From: a virus
Length of the DNA stretch: 42,012 nucleotides
IMG/VR virus record: IMGVR_UViG_3300031251_000050
Span: 1-42,012 of that record
Direction: 5' to 3' (one strand)
Position numbers and translations under genes: made by a program. The notes beneath the pieces were generated by a model. It saw only the letters and a program-made list of their open reading frames with translations. It was not told where the DNA came from and did no database searches. Numbering within the stretch: position 1 is the stretch's first letter; every line of letters starts with the position of its first letter. Shown in pieces: positions 6,577 through 40,576 of the stretch.

Positions 6577-6903
6577 ATGGCGACCACCAAGACCACCAAG
6601 ACCACCAAGAAGACCAAGACGAAGCCCGCGACCGAGCGCGCGGTGCTGGTGACCACGGCGCACCGAGGCGTGTTTTTCGGCTACGCGACGAAGACCGACG
6701 GGGAGACCATCGAACTGAAGCGCGCCCGCCTGTGCGTGTACTGGTCGGCGGACGTGCGCGGCTTCATGGGCCTCGCGTCGGGCGGCCCGACGAAGAGCTG
6801 CAAAATCGGGCGGGCCGCGGACATCGAGCTGCGGAACGTCACCGCCGTGTTGGAGGTGACCGAGGCCGCCGCGAAGGCGTGGGAGGCGTCGCCGTGGGGC
6901 TGA
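6577..6903 (+). CDS. DUF6948-like phage protein
   Basis: This is a 108-residue protein. A Thr/Lys-rich N-terminal tail (residues 1-18) is followed by a compact beta domain: VLVTTAHRGVFFGYATK, IELKRARLCVYWSADVRGF, GLASGGPTKSCKIGRAAD and a final helix EAAAKAWEASPWG. This order, with RGVFFGY, a CxYWS segment and the SPWG end, matches the phage domain known as DUF6948. Its function is not known. The next gene, the Gly/Tyr repeat protein, starts with a GTG inside its last codons, so the two are translationally coupled. Confidence 0.6.
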   Translation: MATTKTTKTTKKTKTKPATERAVLVTTAHRGVFFGYATKTDGETIELKRARLCVYWSADVRGFMGLASGGPTKSCKIGRAADIELRNVTAVLEVTEAAAKAWEASPWG

Positions 6904-7226
6904 TCCGCGGAGAGCTGCCGGAGTGGGCGAAGGGCTCCGGCTACGGCTCCGGCTACGGCTCCGGCTCCGGCTACGGCGACGGCGGATACGGCGACGGCGG
7001 CTCCGGCTACGGCTACGGCTCCGGCTACGGCTCCGGCTCCGGCTCCGGCTCCGGCTACGGCGACGGCGGATACGGCGACGGCGGCTCCGGCTACGGCTAC
7101 GGCTACGGCTACGGCTACGGCTACGGCTCCGGCTCCGGCTCCGGCTCCGGCTACGGCGACGGCGGATACGGCGACGGCGGCTCCGGCGACGGCGGCTACG
7201 GCTACGGCGATGACATCGTGAAGTGA
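6894..7226 (+). CDS. Gly/Tyr-rich low-complexity repeat protein
   Basis: This is a 110-residue protein from GTG 6894, placed after a GGGAGGCGTCGCC ribosome site and overlapping the DUF6948-like gene. A 13-residue head (VGLIRGELPEWAK) is followed by about 93 residues of Gly at every second position, with Tyr, Ser or Asp between, and the tail DDIVK. A 12-residue unit YGDGGYGDGGSG occurs three times with GY/GS runs between. Such sequence is disordered and typical of self-associating condensate or adhesive proteins; that role is inferred. Expression is supported by the coupled start and by a frame kept intact through the repeats. Confidence 0.65.
   Translation: MGLIRGELPEWAKGSGYGSGYGSGSGYGDGGYGDGGSGYGYGSGYGSGSGSGSGYGDGGYGDGGSGYGYGYGYGYGYGSGSGSGSGYGDGGYGDGGSGDGGYGYGDDIVK
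6933..7211 (+). repeat. Tandem GGC-NNN codon-pair repeat inside the Gly/Tyr gene
   Basis: The stretch is built of hexamers GGCTAC, GGCTCC and GGCGAC with GGCGGA/GGCGGC, and of three larger copies of a 36-base unit coding YGDGGYGDGGSG. All units are multiples of 6 bases, so gain or loss by slippage keeps the frame. Codon choice is nearly invariant (Gly almost always GGC, Tyr TAC), which points to recent repeat expansion. Confidence 0.85.
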
Positions 7227-10022: not shown

Positions 10023-10504
10023 GCGCGGTTGATGGGCCACTGCCCTACGTGATCGACGGACTCCGCGCCGACCTCGCCACCGTCATCGCGCGCGCCGAGC
10101 GGGCGGAGGCCGAGGCCGATCGTCTGCGCCACGTCCACGACAACGCATGGGCGATCCTAGGAGCCGCAGATGGCGAATCGCTAGTCGAAGCTTCGATTCG
10201 CGTGAGAGCGCACGCCAAGCGGGCGGAGGCCAAGGCGACGTCGCATCGCAAGATTGGCTGGACGCTTCTCGGCGACGGCTACGCCGCGGGCGTCGAGGCG
10301 GCGGCGAAGCAGCTTGAGGAAGCCGCGAACGTTCAGGAGAAGGATGCGCTCGATGACCTCCACCGTCAGAACGTCGCCGAGCTGAACGGGGCGAACAGGC
10401 CCATGACCTGCACGAACATCAACAGCTACGACGCGGCGCAGATCGAGGCGCTGCGTGAGGCCGCGGGACGCGTGCGCGCGCTCGTGCGGAAGGGGGCGAC
10501 GTGA
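10019..10504 (+). CDS. Hypothetical coiled-coil protein
   Basis: This is a 161-residue protein from GTG 10019 in a GTGA overlap. Residues 14-40 (RADLATVIARAERAEAEADR) and 60-80 (RVRAHAKRAEAKA) are predicted coiled coil with repeated RAEAEA/KRAEAKA units. A helical C-terminus follows. There is no catalytic motif. It lies directly before the ASCH gene, whose GTG start overlaps its stop. Confidence 0.55.
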   Translation: MSAVDGPLPYVIDGLRADLATVIARAERAEAEADRLRHVHDNAWAILGAADGESLVEASIRVRAHAKRAEAKATSHRKIGWTLLGDGYAAGVEAAAKQLEEAANVQEKDALDDLHRQNVAELNGANRPMTCTNINSYDAAQIEALREAAGRVRALVRKGAT

Positions 10505-10983
10505 AAGCGCTCTCCATTCGGCAGCCGTGGGCCTGGGCGATCATCCACGGCGGCAAGCGCGTCGAGAACCGCGATTGGAAGGGCTGCGCCTACCGCGGCG
10601 AGGTCCTGATCCACGCGTCGAAGTGGCCAGCGACGTCGAAGGGCAAGGCTTACGAGTCGTTCGTCGACGAAGCGCTCAGCGCCGTGCGGACTGCGCAGGA
10701 CACGGGCTGGCCACTACCAAAGCCGGCGTGCTTCGCCCTTCGCGACATGCTCGACTCGCGTGGCGGCATCGTCGGGATCGCGCGCATCGTGGACGTTCTC
10801 GAACACGAAGCGCCGTCCTGGATCGTGACCGAGACAGAACGCATCTGGTGGACGGGCGGATTCGCGCTCGTGCTCGACGACGTGCGGCCGCTGCCGCTCA
10901 TCCCCTGCGTCGGCGCGCTGGGCCTGTTCAACGTGCCACCGCCGGTAGCTGGCGCGGTCCGCGTCGCGCGGAATGGGGCGTGA
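10501..10983 (+). CDS. ASCH domain protein
   Basis: This is a 160-residue protein from GTG 10501. It opens with KALSIRQPWAWAIIHGGKRV, then ENRDWKGCAYRGEVLIHASK, the hallmark of the ASCH fold: a beta-barrel related to PUA that binds RNA or modified nucleotides. Later GGIVGIARIVDVLE and WWTGGFALVLDDVRPL complete the domain. Phage ASCH proteins are common and mostly uncharacterised. Its TGA overlaps the ATG of csf1, so it may be translated together with the CRISPR module. RNA binding is inferred from the family. Confidence 0.85.
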   Translation: MKALSIRQPWAWAIIHGGKRVENRDWKGCAYRGEVLIHASKWPATSKGKAYESFVDEALSAVRTAQDTGWPLPKPACFALRDMLDSRGGIVGIARIVDVLEHEAPSWIVTETERIWWTGGFALVLDDVRPLPLIPCVGALGLFNVPPPVAGAVRVARNGA

Positions 10984-11963
10984 TGGACTCCGCATCCACG
11001 CTCCTGCACGCGCACTGTGGCTCGCCTACGGTCGCCGAGTGCAGCGACATCGAGCGCACGGCCTGCTGGCACTGCGGCGGCTCGACGACGCGCGGGCAAC
11101 TCGTGATGCGGTGGATGGGACGAGACTTCGTCGGTCAGAACCGCATCAAGGCGCCCCACAGCCAGCACGTGTGCGAGGCGTGCATCTGGGTCATGGCCCG
11201 CTCGAGCGACGTGCCGCATCGGCCCGCGCAGCCGGGGCAGCAGTGCGGCCCGAACTTCCGCAACTTCTCGCACATGCTCGACGCGCGCGGCTACGTGAAC
11301 GCGAGCAAGGGTGAGAAGCCGACGATTCGCGACTGGCTGCGCGCGCCGAAGGCGGGCCGATGGTTCGCGGCCATCGCCGAGAGCGGGCAGAAGCACGTGA
11401 TCCCCTACGCGCCGATCAACATCGGTGCGACGGGCGGCAGGATCCAGTTCGAAGAGCAGGTGGTCGCGCTTCCGCGCGATGACGCCGGATGGCGCATCGT
11501 CGACACGTGCACCTCGCTGCTCACGCTCGGCGCGACGAAGGAGAGCGTTGCAAGCGGGCAGTACACGCCGGGCGAGTGGCAGCGATGCGGCGAAGCGATC
11601 CGCGCCTTCGAGCGTGACCACGCGGGCGCGCGGCACTCGACGTGGTTCGTGCTCGTCGTGTGGCTCGCGCAGCGAGACGAGGAAGCGGTAGCGGCTCGCA
11701 TGGCCGCAGAAAAAGAGGCGAAGAGTGGCAAGGCTCGACGAGGCGGCGAAGGATCGGTTTCTGGCGGCGACGGTGCTCGTGCTGCTCGACCTGCGGGCGG
11801 CGTACCTCGCAAACGGGGCGAGCGCGCTCAAGCACTGGGACCAGCTACTGGACCGGATGCGAGCCGCGACGCGCACGACGAGCAGCGTGCAGGAGTGGCA
11901 CACGTCGATGCTGCGGTCGCTCCAACTTGGAGCGCCGGGCAGCTCGGCCTGTGGAGCTCTTGA
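10983..11963 (+). CDS. csf1: Csf1-like large subunit of a type IV CRISPR-Cas complex
   Basis: This is a 326-residue protein. A four-Cys zinc finger is formed by C28 and C31 (CWHCGG) and C64 and C67 (CEACIW). It is followed by RDWLRAPKAGRWFAAIAESG (residues 116-135) and QKHVIPYAPINI, the block by which I recognise Csf1. Csf1 is the Cas8-like subunit at the end of the type IV ribonucleoprotein. The last 80 or so residues (from about 248) overlap the cas11 frame and are Gly/Ala/Arg-rich; codon use there follows cas11, so this tail is probably a tolerated extension. It ends with AGQLGLWSS. The ATG overlaps the ASCH stop. The start of the next gene inside it supports strong coupling. Confidence 0.8.
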   Translation: MDSASTLLHAHCGSPTVAECSDIERTACWHCGGSTTRGQLVMRWMGRDFVGQNRIKAPHSQHVCEACIWVMARSSDVPHRPAQPGQQCGPNFRNFSHMLDARGYVNASKGEKPTIRDWLRAPKAGRWFAAIAESGQKHVIPYAPINIGATGGRIQFEEQVVALPRDDAGWRIVDTCTSLLTLGATKESVASGQYTPGEWQRCGEAIRAFERDHAGARHSTWFVLVVWLAQRDEEAVAARMAAEKEAKSGKARRGGEGSVSGGDGARAARPAGGVPRKRGERAQALGPATGPDASRDAHDEQRAGVAHVDAAVAPTWSAGQLGLWSS

Positions 11964-12120
11964 GGCGCTGGTGCAGGAAGTCGGCGCGTGCCGCGCGGAG
12001 TGGCTCGATCTGATCGAGCGCGAGCACGGCTATCTCATCGCGGCAGCGAGGCTGGAGTCTGAGAGGCGGCGCGATGTGCGCGACGCCAAGCGTGACGAGA
12101 TTCGGCTCGAGGGAGAGTGA
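11725..12120 (+). CDS. Cas11-like small subunit of the type IV complex
   Basis: This is a 131-residue, all-helical protein from GTG 11725, with GAGG 6 bases upstream. It starts inside csf1 in another frame; third-position GC is high in this frame across the overlap, so it is the main coding frame there. Cas11 proteins are small helical bundles that pack along the Cas7 backbone, are very divergent, and in IV-B loci lie between csf1 and csf2, exactly as here. The assignment rests on position, size and helical content rather than on sequence identity. It ends 1 base before the csf2 ATG. Confidence 0.6.
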   Translation: MARLDEAAKDRFLAATVLVLLDLRAAYLANGASALKHWDQLLDRMRAATRTTSSVQEWHTSMLRSLQLGAPGSSACGALEALVQEVGACRAEWLDLIEREHGYLIAAARLESERRRDVRDAKRDEIRLEGE

Positions 12121-12121
12121 C

Positions 12122-13102
12122 ATGGAAAAGCGTCGATACGAGTTCATTCTGCAGGCGATTCAGCCCATCGCGCACCACGCCGAGAGCTTCGGCAACAGCG
12201 CGATCCACATGCGGCTAAAGATTCGCCAGCCCGACGGATCCTTCGTGAACGTGCCGAGAATCACCGGCGATACGATGCGCCACGGTCTTCGCGAAGCGGC
12301 TGCGTACGCGTTCCTCGACGCGGCCGGCATGCTCGACACGCCCGCGCTGACGGAGAGCGCGCTGCGACTGCTGTTCGCTGGCGGCATGATCACGGGGGCC
12401 GACGCGGGGTCGGTGAAGATCGACGGATACCGCGAGATGGTGGAGCTGTGCCCGCCGCTCGCGCTGCTCGGCGGATGCGCGCAGAACCGCAGCATCCCAG
12501 GCCGCTTGCAGGTCGACGACGCGATTCTCATCTGCGAAGAGACGTCGCACCTGTGGAGCGACTGGACGCGGGCGTTCGTCGCCGAGATGTCGATCGACAC
12601 GCACCGCGCGCACGTCGAGGAGGTCCAGCGCGTGCGCATGGACCCGTCGCTCGTGCCGCATCACCGCGCGCTGCTCACCGATGGCGGCGACGCGATCGTC
12701 AAGCGGCTGGGCAAGAGCGAGAAGGCGAGCGCGAAGAAGGACGCGGTCGAGAAGGACGAGGCCAAGTCGACGATGCTGCCGCGCCGCTACGAAACGATCG
12801 TCGCTGGCTCGCTGTTCATGTGGGGCCTCGAGTGCACGTGCATGAGCGAACTCGACGTCGACACGCTCGACGCGATGTGCGCGGCGTTCACGAGCAACAT
12901 GGTCGTCGGCGGCAAGCGCGCGACCGGCAACGGGCGCATGCGCGCCATCGCGGCGCAGAACATCGCCGTCCTACGTCCGCGCGACGCGGCGCAGACGCTC
13001 GACCTCGTCGGGCCCGGCAACCGCCACGGAGAGCGCTTCGCGGCGCACGTACGCGTGCGCGCCGACCGCGTGCGCGCCTGGCTGTCGCAGGTGGAGGCGT
13101 GA
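12122..13102 (+). CDS. csf2: Csf2 (Cas7-type backbone RAMP) of a type IV CRISPR-Cas system
   Basis: This is a 326-residue protein starting at ATG 12122 after a GAGGGAGAG site. It shows the Cas7 layout: an N-terminal strand YEFILQAIQPIAHH, the segment VPRITGDTMRHGLREAAAY (residues 44-62) that matches the Cas7 glycine/arginine entry helix, then LRLLFAGGMITG, CPPLALLGG and a Lys/Glu-rich insertion at about residues 200-225 that would form the thumb or a loop. Near the C-terminus, SNMVVGGKRATGNGRM is the second Gly-rich element. Cas7 subunits polymerise along the guide RNA. The short distance to cas11 and the GTGA overlap with csf3 support one complex. Confidence 0.8.
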   Translation: MEKRRYEFILQAIQPIAHHAESFGNSAIHMRLKIRQPDGSFVNVPRITGDTMRHGLREAAAYAFLDAAGMLDTPALTESALRLLFAGGMITGADAGSVKIDGYREMVELCPPLALLGGCAQNRSIPGRLQVDDAILICEETSHLWSDWTRAFVAEMSIDTHRAHVEEVQRVRMDPSLVPHHRALLTDGGDAIVKRLGKSEKASAKKDAVEKDEAKSTMLPRRYETIVAGSLFMWGLECTCMSELDVDTLDAMCAAFTSNMVVGGKRATGNGRMRAIAAQNIAVLRPRDAAQTLDLVGPGNRHGERFAAHVRVRADRVRAWLSQVEA

Positions 13103-13761
13103 CACCGCTGCATGTCGTGGCGCATCTGCAAGGCGGCATCTGCCTACCCAACGGGCCGATCGCGCTCGACGCGCTGCTGACGTGGGCCGAGGCGATGCGG
13201 CGTGAGCTTCCGCCGCCAGCGACCGCGCAGGACTGCCAGGACCTGCCGCTGCCGATCGCGCGCTCGACGTGCGGGCGCTACTGGCTCGCCAGCTTCGGCG
13301 CGTACGAGCCTGAGGAGCACGAGGTCGACTGGACGAATCGACGCTTCCCGATCGCGGAAGCGCAGATGCTCGCGGAGCCGAAACTGCGTCGCGTGAACAT
13401 GAGTGCTGGCGCGTGCAAATCGTACCGCCTGCCGCGCGAGCGCATGCACCTGCGAGGCGATCGGATCGATTGGTGGGCCATCGGCGACGCCGACGGCGTG
13501 CGCGAGCTGCTCATGTACGTCGGCTATCTGGGCAAGCGGCGCGGGGTCGGGCTCGGGCGCGTGCGCGAGTGGCGCGTCGGGCCGTGCGAGTCGTGGGGCG
13601 AAGGCTTCCCAGTCGTGCGTGACGGCTACCCGACGCGGGCGCTCCCGCTCGACGTGAGCGGCATCGCCGATGATGCCGAGCGCGCGATGCACGCGATCCT
13701 GCCGCCGTACTGGGCGCACACGCGACGAGTGGAGGCGTGGGTGCCGTCATGGGTGGCGTAG
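13099..13761 (+). CDS. csf3: Csf3 (Cas5-type RAMP) of a type IV CRISPR-Cas system
   Basis: This is a 220-residue protein from GTG 13099, overlapping the csf2 stop. The N-terminal half begins VVAHLQGGICLPNGPIALDA and includes LLTWAEAMRRELP. The middle KSYRLPRERMHLRGDRIDWW leads to AIGDADGVRELLMYVGYLGK, then the glycine-rich loop KRRGVGLGRVREW (residues 146-158). That ends the RAMP ferredoxin fold in the way seen in Cas5 and Csf3, where it binds the 5' handle of the guide. The 3' end overlaps the Cas6-like gene by 13 bases. Confidence 0.8.
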   Translation: MTPLHVVAHLQGGICLPNGPIALDALLTWAEAMRRELPPPATAQDCQDLPLPIARSTCGRYWLASFGAYEPEEHEVDWTNRRFPIAEAQMLAEPKLRRVNMSAGACKSYRLPRERMHLRGDRIDWWAIGDADGVRELLMYVGYLGKRRGVGLGRVREWRVGPCESWGEGFPVVRDGYPTRALPLDVSGIADDAERAMHAILPPYWAHTRRVEAWVPSWVA

Positions 13762-14726
13762 CTACGATCGTCGGTCCCGAGGTCGCGTCGGCGACGGTGT
13801 GCCGCTTCTGCGGCGCGCCGTTCGTCGGCATCTATCGCGCGCAGTACACGTGCGCGCAGGAAGCGTGCGTAGCGGAGCGGGTGCGGGCGTACGAGCGCGA
13901 GCGCATGCGCGACCCGTCACGCGTGCTCGCATCTCGTGCCCGCAGCCGCGAGTGGGCGCGCGAGCATCGCGGGTGCCACCGGTCGGAGCCGTGGCTACTC
14001 GGGCAGCCTGCGCACGGATCGCATCTGCCCGGCGGCGGCTGCGAGATATTCGTGGCGCCAGCGCCGAAGTGGCCTGTCGAGCACCGCAACGTCCGCGCGC
14101 TGCACGGGGCGATCACCGCGCTTCTCGACCACGGGCACGACGAGGGCGAGCCTGGGCGTGGGCGCTGGCCAGAGTGGGCGCTCATCCCGTGGCCACGCGG
14201 CACGCTCGGCTGGGGCGTGTACTGGCGCACCGAGGCCGGAGCGGCGCTCGCATGCACGACCCGCGACGGCCGGCTCTACGACCGCGCGTGCGCCTTTCGC
14301 TTCGGCCCGCTCGTGCGGGTCAAGGCGCCCGAGATCGCCACGCGGGGGCGTCGGCGCATCGCGATCGATGCAGTCACGCCGGTGTCGATCCAGAGCGCCG
14401 ACAGGACCATCGAGCGCACGTCGCCAGATGCCACGTCGCTGATCTCGGCGCTGTCGCACGGCTTCGGCCGACGCTGCGGGCTGCTCGAAGATGTGCCGAC
14501 GAGCGACTTGCGGATCGAGGTCGTGAGCGACGAGACGCGCATCGAGACGGTGAAGCTCGGCGCGTACGCGTCGGCGAAATACGGCCATGTGCGCGGCTGG
14601 GTCGGCCGCGTCGTGGTCGAGTGCAACGCGCCAGCGCACTGGCTACTCGAGTGCGCGGCGCGGTGCGTGGGGCTCGGAGGCCGAACCGCGTTTGGTTTCG
14701 GTCGAGTGAGGGTGGCGCCGTGCTGA
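13749..14726 (+). CDS. Cas6-like RAMP endoribonuclease with N-terminal zinc ribbon
   Basis: This is a 325-residue protein from ATG 13749 (GGAGG upstream; a GTG at 13737 is an alternative). Residues 15-75 hold a zinc ribbon (C18, C21, C35, C40) and a basic helix. Residues 98-325 look like Cas6: a first ferredoxin unit with a candidate catalytic His in RNVRALHGAITALLDH (H119), a VTPVSIQ segment, and a C-terminal unit with RGWVGRVVVECNAP ending in the G-rich loop VGLGGRTAFGFGRVRV (307-322). Cas6 cuts CRISPR repeat RNA. Known IV-B systems lack Cas6, so its presence and the fused ribbon are unusual. It overlaps csf3 and the CysH-like gene. The Cas6 call is from motif order alone. Confidence 0.7.
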   Translation: MGGVATIVGPEVASATVCRFCGAPFVGIYRAQYTCAQEACVAERVRAYERERMRDPSRVLASRARSREWAREHRGCHRSEPWLLGQPAHGSHLPGGGCEIFVAPAPKWPVEHRNVRALHGAITALLDHGHDEGEPGRGRWPEWALIPWPRGTLGWGVYWRTEAGAALACTTRDGRLYDRACAFRFGPLVRVKAPEIATRGRRRIAIDAVTPVSIQSADRTIERTSPDATSLISALSHGFGRRCGLLEDVPTSDLRIEVVSDETRIETVKLGAYASAKYGHVRGWVGRVVVECNAPAHWLLECAARCVGLGGRTAFGFGRVRVAPC

Positions 14727-15448
14727 TCGAATGCGACCGGCACACGCGCGCCGATCTGGATCACTGGCGCATGCGCGAGCGGCAGGATGCCGTGCACTGC
14801 AAGCTCGCGAGCATGGCGCGCAAGATCGACGCGGCGAAGCGAGCGATCGCGACCTTCGACGCTCACCATCGAGGCGCCTACTACGTGGGCGCGTCCTGGG
14901 GGAAGGACTCGGTCGTGGTCGCCTCGATCGCGTACGCCGCGGGCGTGCCGGCACCGCTCGTGTACGTGCGGGTCGAGCCGATGGCGAACCCGCACTGCAC
15001 GCTCGTGCGCGACGCCTTCCTTGCTGCGCACGCGGCCGACTACGACGAAGTGCGCATCGACTGCGAGCGCGACGAGCATGGGCGCTTCCCGAGCGTCGGG
15101 CGCCTGGAGTCAGGCTTCGCCATCGCTGCCGAGCGCCACGGCGACGCGTACGTGAGCGGCGTACGCGCCGAGGAGAGCGGAGCGCGCCGGCTGCGGATGG
15201 GCGCGCACGGAGTCGAGAGCCTGCGCACGTGCGCACCGATCGGCTGGTGGCGCGGTGAGGACGTCTTCGCCTACCTGCACGCGCACGAGCTGCCCGTGCA
15301 CCCGGCTTACGCGATGACGATGGGCGGACGGCTCGACCGCAACAGGATCCGCGTGGCCACCATCGGAGGCGAGCGCGGCACCGGGCACGGGCGAGCAGAC
15401 TGGGAGGCGCGGTACTACCCGCGAGAATCCGCAGCAATCCTGGCGTAA
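14720..15448 (+). CDS. CysH-like PP-loop (PAPS-reductase family) protein of the type IV module
   Basis: This is a 242-residue protein from GTG 14720 (GAGGG upstream), overlapping the Cas6-like gene by 7 bases. The PP-loop is S59-WGKDS-V, the nucleotide-alpha-hydrolase motif. Later ESGFAIAAERHGDAYVSGVR and RAEESGARR (about 149-157) give the conserved G-x-R-x-x-E-S pattern, followed by CAPIGWWRGEDVFAYLHAHE. The Cys-rich sulfate-reduction tail of true CysH is absent. IV-B CRISPR loci are known to carry a CysH-like ancillary gene of unknown function, and this fits. RNA or nucleotide modification is possible but unproven. It ends the CRISPR block. Confidence 0.85.
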   Translation: MLIECDRHTRADLDHWRMRERQDAVHCKLASMARKIDAAKRAIATFDAHHRGAYYVGASWGKDSVVVASIAYAAGVPAPLVYVRVEPMANPHCTLVRDAFLAAHAADYDEVRIDCERDEHGRFPSVGRLESGFAIAAERHGDAYVSGVRAEESGARRLRMGAHGVESLRTCAPIGWWRGEDVFAYLHAHELPVHPAYAMTMGGRLDRNRIRVATIGGERGTGHGRADWEARYYPRESAAILA

Positions 15449-39442: not shown

Positions 39443-40576
39443 CTAGGCGGCGGTGTCGCAGGCGACGGCGCAGCACTCGCGCTCGGCGGCCACATCGGGC
39501 GCGCCGTGAGAGATCGCATCGTCGTAGGCGGCGAGCGCCTCGGTGTGACGACGCAGCAGGAACAGTGACCGGGCGCGGCCGAGCGACGCGCGCCACTCGC
39601 GAGCGCCAGGGATCAGCGTCTGCGAGACGACCGAGCCGCGCCGTGCGGTGACGATGGCGAAGGCCAGCGCGGCGTCGGCGTGCATGCCGAGCGCGGCGAA
39701 CGCGTCGGCGCGCATGAAGTCGAGGTCAGGATGGGTGGCGCCGAGAATCACGGCGGTGTCGGCGGTGTCGAGCACGCCGAGCCAGTCATCGGCCAGTGTC
39801 TGCAGCATCGCGCGAGCGATCGCGAGGCGAGCGCAGCCCGTGGCGTGCATCGTCAGCGCCGGCCATGCGGCCTCGACGACGTCGCGGGCTTCGTCGATGC
39901 GGTGGACCGCAGCGAGCGCGACCGCCAGGTAGCCAGCGGCCTCGACGTCGTCGGGGTCGGTGGCGAGCCGGCGACGCAGTAGCGCCTCGTTGCGCGCGTC
40001 TTTGCCGAGCGCGTCGCGCACAGCCTGGATCGCGCCGTAGTGGACGACGCGGACGCGGAAGACGCCGCCTCGGCCGCCAGCTTCGCGCATGGCGGGCTCG
40101 AGCGACTCGTGCACGATGCCGCGGTAGCGCAGGTGAGGCGCGCGCCGCGTGAGCATCACGACCCAGTTCGGATCGCCACACCGTGCGGCGCCGCTCACCA
40201 CGTCGGCGGGGGCGTCGTCTGGACACGTGGCTTCGTGCTTCTCGATCGCGCCAATGTCGATCCCGCGTGCGTCGAGCTTCTCGGCGGCCCGGCGCAGCTT
40301 CGCGGCTTCCCCGTCGGGGAAGACGTCGTCAGCGTCGACGAGTACGCACCAGTCGCCCGTGGCCGCGTCGAGTGACACGTTGCGGGCGGCGGCGAAGTCG
40401 TCGCGCCACGCCCACCGCACCACGCGAGCGCCGAAGCTCTCGGCGATCTCAATGGTGCGGTCGGTCGAGCCGGTGTCGACGACGACGAGCTCGTCAACGT
40501 GCTCGGCGAACGACGCAAGGCACCGCGCGAGCGATGCCTCTTCGTCGCGGACGATCATGCAAGCAGAGAGGCGCAC
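39443..40576 (-). CDS. Family 2 glycosyltransferase with helical-repeat C-terminus
   Basis: This is a 377-residue protein from GTG 40576; ATG 40558 is an alternative. The GT2 core is clear: LSACMIVRDEEASLARCLAS, HVDELVVVDTGSTDRTIEIA, WAWRDDFAAARNVSLDAATG and WCVLVDADDVFPDG with the DxD metal site. The acceptor region HLRYRGIVHESLEPAM follows. The last 170 residues are helical with TPR-like patterns. The gene sits between decoration and capsid genes in the late operon, so glycosylation of a virion protein is a reasonable inference; alteration of host surface sugars is the other option. Confidence 0.9.
   Translation of the reverse strand: MRLSACMIVRDEEASLARCLASFAEHVDELVVVDTGSTDRTIEIAESFGARVVRWAWRDDFAAARNVSLDAATGDWCVLVDADDVFPDGEAAKLRRAAEKLDARGIDIGAIEKHEATCPDDAPADVVSGAARCGDPNWVVMLTRRAPHLRYRGIVHESLEPAMREAGGRGGVFRVRVVHYGAIQAVRDALGKDARNEALLRRRLATDPDDVEAAGYLAVALAAVHRIDEARDVVEAAWPALTMHATGCARLAIARAMLQTLADDWLGVLDTADTAVILGATHPDLDFMRADAFAALGMHADAALAFAIVTARRGSVVSQTLIPGAREWRASLGRARSLFLLRRHTEALAAYDDAISHGAPDVAAERECCAVACDTAA

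Follow-up and report, generated by a model that had tools for sequence, protein, structure and literature searches.

The virus record IMGVR_UViG_3300031251_000050, probably a fragment, was analysed at its full length of 42,012 bases (G+C 70%; the window hereafter) and carries a phage-borne type IV CRISPR-Cas effector operon of the IV-B type that gained a Cas6 and comes from a viral lineage of such operons. Its six open reading frames (ORFs) on the plus strand, overlapping or abutting between positions 10983 and 15448, encode Csf1, Cas11, Csf2, Csf3, Cas6 and a CysH-like PP-loop protein (Table 1). From the motif at the end of an overprinted Csf1 tail and the distribution of RNA-processing genes among the relatives, we lean towards the view that in viruses the IV-B effector is a complex docked at the replisome, held there via the Csf1 clamp motif, whose RNA component would be made by Cas6 or, in Cas6-less relatives, by a RelE/BrnT-like ribonuclease.

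A type IV-B operon with a cas6 gene

A sequence-only reading of this DNA had given the six genes these same names; all of the reading frames exist on the plus strand, and the names were upheld by profile searches, a Csf2 tree and a structure model of Cas6. The profile searches placed Csf1, Csf2 and Csf3 inside the type IV families (PADLOC, TIGR), with NCBIfam scores of the csf proteins falling under the equivalog cut-offs. A Csf2-type Cas7 occurs together with a Csf3-type Cas5 (PADLOC), which is the type IV signature, and the IV-B core of csf1, cas11, csf2 and csf3 is accompanied by the ancillary CysH-like gene. The large subunit is Csf1 and not the Cas10-like HD protein of IV-C, and neither the DinG helicase that marks IV-A (PF13307) nor Cas1 was found in the 42-kb record, which is probably a fragment. 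Csf1 has Cys pairs at residues 29/32 and 65/68 and the block ESGQKH, of which GQKH is conserved in the family alignment, and the Csf2 loop reads GGKRATGNGR. Every one of the six families is kept in the same operon across dozens of independent viral contigs; because the families are conserved together in this way, the operon is not a chance arrangement. Given that IV-B has been described as having neither a CRISPR array (PMC8175902, PMC7937560, PMC11656645) nor Cas6 or any other enzyme that processes CRISPR RNA (crRNA) (PMC8175902, PMC7937560), whereas a Cas6 is present here at a place in the classification where Cas6/Csf5 should be missing, the operon is a variant of IV-B. The earlier claim of a hallmark IV-B operon therefore stands for csf1-cas11-csf2-csf3 with a cysH-like gene on a phage and does not extend to cas6, which is not standard.

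The Csf2 profile lay nearest to the solved IV-B Csf2 7jhy (1.5e-16), followed by a chain called Cas7c, 11fs (4e-12), with the IV-A Csf2 far behind (6e-4). In a maximum-likelihood Csf2 tree (55 rows), the window fell in a clade of 27 rows with support of 100/100; the Rhodococcus plasmids, Skermania phage SPI1 and a second phage clade without Cas6 all lay outside it. The window's Csf2 lineage looks almost exclusively viral: in a non-exhaustive pattern scan of genomes and viral contigs, an alignment of near Csf2 proteins retrieved 27 viral loci and, from a set of about 85,000 species genomes, just 5 loci, of which 3 are on contigs of metagenome-assembled genomes shorter than 13 kb, while an alignment of distant Csf2 proteins retrieved 35 viral loci. 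Alignment profiles were required for this retrieval: scanning viral contigs with one Csf2 protein, and named phages with tblastn, yielded no matches.

The overprinted tail of Csf1

The sequence-only reading had the module joined to the ASCH gene and the early operon by stop/start overlaps, which holds for the TGATG shared with the preceding ASCH gene; the overlap between csf1 and cas11, at 239 nucleotides, is more than a stop/start overlap, and that reading missed the overprinted Csf1 tail with its clamp-type motif. Most of the phage relatives have such a +1-frame csf1/cas11 overlap, ranging from 130 to 350 nucleotides. The tail is poorly conserved save at its end, where QLSLF, QLDLF, QLTLF, QIALF, QRSLF and similar strings are found; the window has QLGLW. 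Bacterial clamp-binding motifs have the consensus QL[S/D]LF or QxxLF (PMC12309361), and a W form, QLPLWG, occurs in ImuB (PMC10421592).

Whether Cas11 coding forces the motif was asked by a permutation test in which the Cas11 protein was kept and the synonymous cas11 codons were permuted. A first run gave the motif in 26 of 35 tails against 0.34 expected. Among 32 non-redundant overprinted tails, Q..[LIM][FW] was present in 24 against 1.33 expected and the strict form of the clamp motif in 13 against 0.25, with five control motifs at 0. The motif also lay within the last 32 residues of 29 of the 57 unique Csf1 proteins, compared with 0.45% of 2,450 other ORFs. All of these statistics overstate the significance because related loci are not independent. 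Two distant loci that had been retrieved via another gene end in QLSLFAQ and QLNLFDW, the Csf1 of locus L058 has QLQMF at its end outside any overprinted tail, and on a Rhodovastum plasmid (L004:5450-5920) it is Cas11, and not Csf1, that ends in a canonical-looking clamp motif, QLELFEAA, again without overprinting. That the QxxLF tail has no function and arises only because Cas11 coding is conserved in the other frame would fit the similar place of the motif over Cas11 (residues 39-81), where Cas11 residues are partly conserved, but the 0.3-1.3 motifs produced by synonymous permutation against the 24-26 observed, together with the two motifs that are not overprinted, make it very improbable.

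No sliding clamp gene is encoded in the window, so the partner would be the host DnaN. Taken by itself, the docking of the complex on the sliding clamp by the Csf1 tail appears somewhat probable from these motif counts. An incomplete literature search returned no paper linking CRISPR effectors to clamp-binding motifs.

As a separate observation, the Cas11 proteins of two archaeal plasmid IV-B loci (L003:5567-5977 and L006:5505-5900) end in SLSEFV and SKLTDFI, which resemble a degenerate archaeal PCNA-binding (PIP) box and would parallel the bacterial clamp motif.

RNA-processing genes, the CysH-like protein and gene context

In its AlphaFold model (pLDDT 82.7, pTM 0.74) the window Cas6 is a tandem RAMP fold with a C-terminal glycine-rich loop. 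A PDB sequence search with the Cas6 profile gave chance matches only, so the folds were compared instead: the top Foldseek matches were all Cas6 proteins, including the type IV Cas6 6njy, at probability 1.0 with a best E of 8.9e-8, and the TM-scores were modest (0.40-0.57), which the additional Cys-rich segment at the N-terminus partly accounts for. In an alignment of 15 homologues the glycine-rich loop (GLGGRTAFGFGR) is invariant, as are His123 and His134, which are candidates for the catalytic His. As a family, Cas6 enzymes show specificity for CRISPR repeats.

The window-type cas6 occurs in 18 of the 27 members of the Csf2 clade (split across two frames in L120) and is placed before csf1 in 9 loci, between csf3 and cysH in 5, the window included, and after cysH in 4. 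Two other Cas6 families are found in such operons. One more clade member has an unrelated Cas6e (PF08798, 4.9e-8) between csf3 and cysH, at L116:11571-12416, beside a small protein described below, and a third, MYXAN-type Cas6 is carried by a separate cyanobacterial branch, made up of a Gloeobacter plasmid with two related viral contigs. This repeated recruitment of different Cas6 families argues for function, that is, for a demand for RNA processing. An origin of the window Cas6 on a host chromosome was considered and set aside, 284 Myxococcota genomes having given two weak matches with no arrays nearby. Likewise, the gap ORFs of the second phage IV-B clade contained no consistent family of extra Cas6 or small-ribonuclease genes.

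The small protein beside the Cas6e has about 90 residues, starts with R-W/Y-F-I-T-P-H-A (RWFITPHAVRRY...) and usually adjoins csf3 or cysH. It is present in 6 of the 7 clade members that have readable surroundings and no window-type Cas6, and in 0 of the 18 that have this Cas6 (Fisher p = 4e-5, uncorrected for kinship). A scan with this family alone added 14 newly labelled loci, several of them on contigs already seen, 12 with csf genes and the other two with cysH. Searches of Pfam and PADLOC assigned the protein to no family, and its model is weakly like BrnT and RelE-type ribonucleases (best E 0.13, probability 0.92). The mutually exclusive pattern suggests that this RelE/BrnT-like protein may replace Cas6.

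No CRISPR array was detected in the window, by scripts and repeat finders, or in six cas6-bearing contigs of 47-85 kb, records that may be fragments. Guides, if used, would accordingly be supplied in trans or be encoded in genome sequence outside the record. Repeats of the window that were considered as an array proved to be a glycine-rich gene (6933-7208) and coding repeats of coiled coils. Neither the window nor nine relatives gave a match to an Rfam family, and a candidate conserved non-coding RNA beside cas6 in L015-L019 was just a terminator-like hairpin. Directly 3' of cas6 in L018 and L019, the 3' end of that gene recurs in degenerate tandem copies (GAGGTCAGGACTT...), followed by a terminator-like hairpin. 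Elsewhere, at L027:4494-4700, near-identical palindromes (GACTCATCGGACAAAATGTCCGATGAGTC) cluster upstream of a phage csf2, at a distance of about 3.5 kb; they may be operators or form a mini-array.

The CysH-like protein likely starts at GTG 14720, because its homologues begin with MLI. Its PP-loop is intact and of the SGGKDS type; it has no ECG reductase motif and no C-terminal Cys, so that it can be called CysH-like only and not a phosphoadenosine phosphosulfate (PAPS) reductase. Absence of the reductase Cys motif has already been reported for IV-B CysH-like proteins (PMC8175902). Sulfate adenylyltransferase subunit 2 and PAPS reductases matched its profile about equally, and its activity is better guessed to be ATP-dependent and not that of a reductase. 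In another locus, L110:10183-13733, a second CysH-family protein and a ParB-like protein lie downstream of the IV-B operon, and DUF3440/ParB/CysH clusters are also close to the plasmid IV-B loci L004-L006.

The minus strand of the window encodes the head, sheath, tape-measure, baseplate and endolysin genes of a contractile-tail phage, and the plus strand a block with a RecT-like annealing protein, an exonuclease, a protein like single-stranded-DNA-binding protein (SSB), ThyX and an ASCH protein, in which the six operon genes are housed as well. Early expression of the operon, as put forward in the sequence-only reading, is plausible from its overlap with the ASCH gene and from the strand it has in common with the recT, exonuclease, SSB and thyX genes; the action on competing phages or plasmids, or on host transcripts, that the same reading proposed would be a putative one. 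At some other loci, too, an ASCH-related gene lies within several kb of IV-B operons. Two further genes of the window are recorded here: a small early-region protein (6894-7226) made almost wholly of Gly-Ser-Gly-Tyr/Asp repeats, and a family 2 glycosyltransferase with TPR repeats (39443-40558) that adjoins the capsid gene and is possibly a modifier of the virion or host surface.

Table 1. Positions of the operon genes, of features within them and of associated genes (window coordinates unless a locus is given)
Feature	Position	Strand	Evidence and remarks
csf1 (Cas8-like large subunit), 326 aa	10983..11963	+	PADLOC typeIV_Cas8 1.4e-23; TIGR03114 9.4e-9
Overprinted stretch, 239 nt: csf1 C-terminal tail in +1 frame over start of cas11	11725..11963	+	long overlap common to most phage relatives
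QLGLW, putative beta sliding-clamp-binding motif, seven residues before Csf1 C-terminus	11940..11954	+	sequence; family-wide enrichment
cas11 (small subunit), 131 aa	11725..12120	+	PADLOC typeIV_Cas11 1.2e-6; present in nearly every relative
csf2 (Cas7 backbone), 326 aa	12122..13102	+	PADLOC typeIV_Cas7 7.9e-45; PDB 7jhy 4.4e-10; tree
csf3 (Cas5), 220 aa, G-rich loop GKRRGVGLGR	13099..13761	+	PADLOC typeIV_Cas5 5.3e-37; TIGR03116 8.3e-17
cas6, 329 aa (start GTG 13737 or ATG 13749)	13737..14726	+	Pfam PF10040 2e-5, 25.6 bits against gathering score 25; PADLOC 2.9e-9
Four-Cys finger at Cas6 N-terminus (Cys 22, 25, 39, 44)	13800..13868	+	comparable Cys-rich N-terminus only in L011, L057, L101, L108
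CysH-like PP-loop protein, 242 aa, SWGKDS	14720..15448	+	Pfam PF01507 7.7e-8; CysH-like proteins from other IV-B loci align with it
ASCH-domain gene	10501..10983	+	Pfam PF04266 2.8e-6; shares TGATG with csf1; belongs to the context, not to the core
Small ITPHA protein	L105:13714-14034, L106:12344-12586, L118:12020-12295		tied to IV-B/CysH loci
Small ITPHA protein	L124:9437-9805, L014:10786-11121, L004:7577-7834		tied to IV-B/CysH loci

Possible modes of action and known systems

A fuller scheme, which we regard as possible and a little short of probable, is that of a Cas6-matured ribonucleoprotein that takes its guides in trans and is docked on the host replication clamp. By analogy with 7jhy, Csf2, Cas11, Csf3 and Csf1 would assemble on a short RNA, IV-B being typified by an RNA-bound filament built from Csf2 and Cas11; the phage Cas6 would cut a repeat-containing precursor RNA made elsewhere, most likely transcribed from CRISPR arrays of the host, into guides that Csf3 would cap. 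The overprinted Csf1 tail would then attach the complex to the beta sliding clamp of the host and bring it to replicating DNA, where it would hinder a guide-matched host or rival element at the fork, with the CysH-like PP-loop enzyme as a putative ATP-dependent modifier at that site. Least secure among these steps are where the guides come from and what the CysH-like enzyme does. Several points weigh against the scheme. The one purified IV-B complex bound heterogeneous RNA, and co-expressed Cas6-processed crRNAs were not enriched in it (PMC7937560); nine of the 27 clade members are without a window-type Cas6; the window motif QLGLW departs from the canonical F form, and in the window taken singly a motif arose in 1.9% of permutations when stops were read through; the Rhodococcus plasmid IV-B systems are without the Csf1 tail; and the complex has no known nuclease or target.

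One alternative is that the operon is a counter-defence sponge, a role proposed for IV-B earlier (PMC8175902), in which phage Cas6 and a Csf filament would mature host pre-crRNA into inert complexes and starve the host CRISPR effectors, the gain lying in sequestration and not in targeting. The near-exclusive viral distribution obtained with the same Csf2 query and the lack of an array of its own agree with this, and a swapping of unrelated Cas6 families would fit differing host repeats. Nevertheless, a sponge leaves the conserved clamp-type tail of Csf1 and the CysH-like enzyme unexplained, and with close Cas6 relatives nearly absent from the 284 Myxococcota genomes a match to host repeats stays putative, so that we hold the sponge to be unlikely.

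A further alternative dispenses with CRISPR guidance: the ribonucleoprotein would package phage or host RNAs, for example in replication or transcription control at the fork, with Cas6 or the RelE-like protein trimming them to length. The solved IV-B complex was indeed built on heterogeneous RNA of about 55-60 nucleotides (PMC7937560). A clamp motif needs no guides, Cas6 is missing in a third of the clade and in other phage IV-B clades, and a possible RelE/BrnT-like ribonuclease stands in its stead in most of the Cas6-less clade members. This unguided packaging is opposed by the family-wide specificity of Cas6 for CRISPR repeats and by the recruitment of three unrelated Cas6 families, and we consider it unlikely.

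Returning to the clamp-docked complex, its interest lies in the fact that IV-B has been described without a nuclease or a known function. That a viral lineage keeps a Cas6, and that its relatives have other Cas6 families or a possible ribonuclease, says that defined RNA ends matter, and the cut site of this enzyme would reveal the guide. A clamp-binding motif would locate the action of the complex at the replication fork. If true, IV-B would provide the first known case of a CRISPR effector tethered to the replication clamp, and the overprinting of a clamp signal on the gene of another subunit would be an example of functional gene overlap in phages with unusually good sampling.

Phage-borne IV-B is already known; IV-B with a Cas6 and a clamp motif is new, no description of it having been found in the searched literature. 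The systems of Mycobacterium sp. JS623 (Csf complex 7jhy) and of Rhodococcus plasmids share with the window csf1, cas11, csf2, csf3 and a cysH-like gene, with no array, dinG or cas1 found, whereas the window operon has cas6, is phage-borne and carries the overprinted Csf1 tail with its clamp-type motif; its Csf2 is about 26% identical to that of Rhodococcus. Skermania phage SPI1 (KR011061, orf40-44, L008:4988-8621) has a complete phage operon, csf1-cas11-csf2-csf3-cysH, annotated as hypothetical, but it is without cas6 and the Csf1 tail motif and belongs to another Csf2 clade. The IV-B system of Fuxivirus (Bathyarchaeia) is likewise virus-borne with a CysH-like gene; unlike the window, it comes from an archaeal virus and has a CRISPR mini-array, with no cas6 mentioned (PMC10848311). 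Plasmid pGMOR1 of Gloeobacter morelensis (L007), with cas11-csf2-cas6-csf3-cysH, resembles the window in gene content, including a Cas6, and differs in the MYXAN-type family of that Cas6, in gene order and in being a plasmid. Outside CRISPR systems, the short QLxLF/W motif of Csf1 is like those of the beta-clamp binders PolC (QLSLF, at or near the C-terminus) and the accessory protein ImuB.

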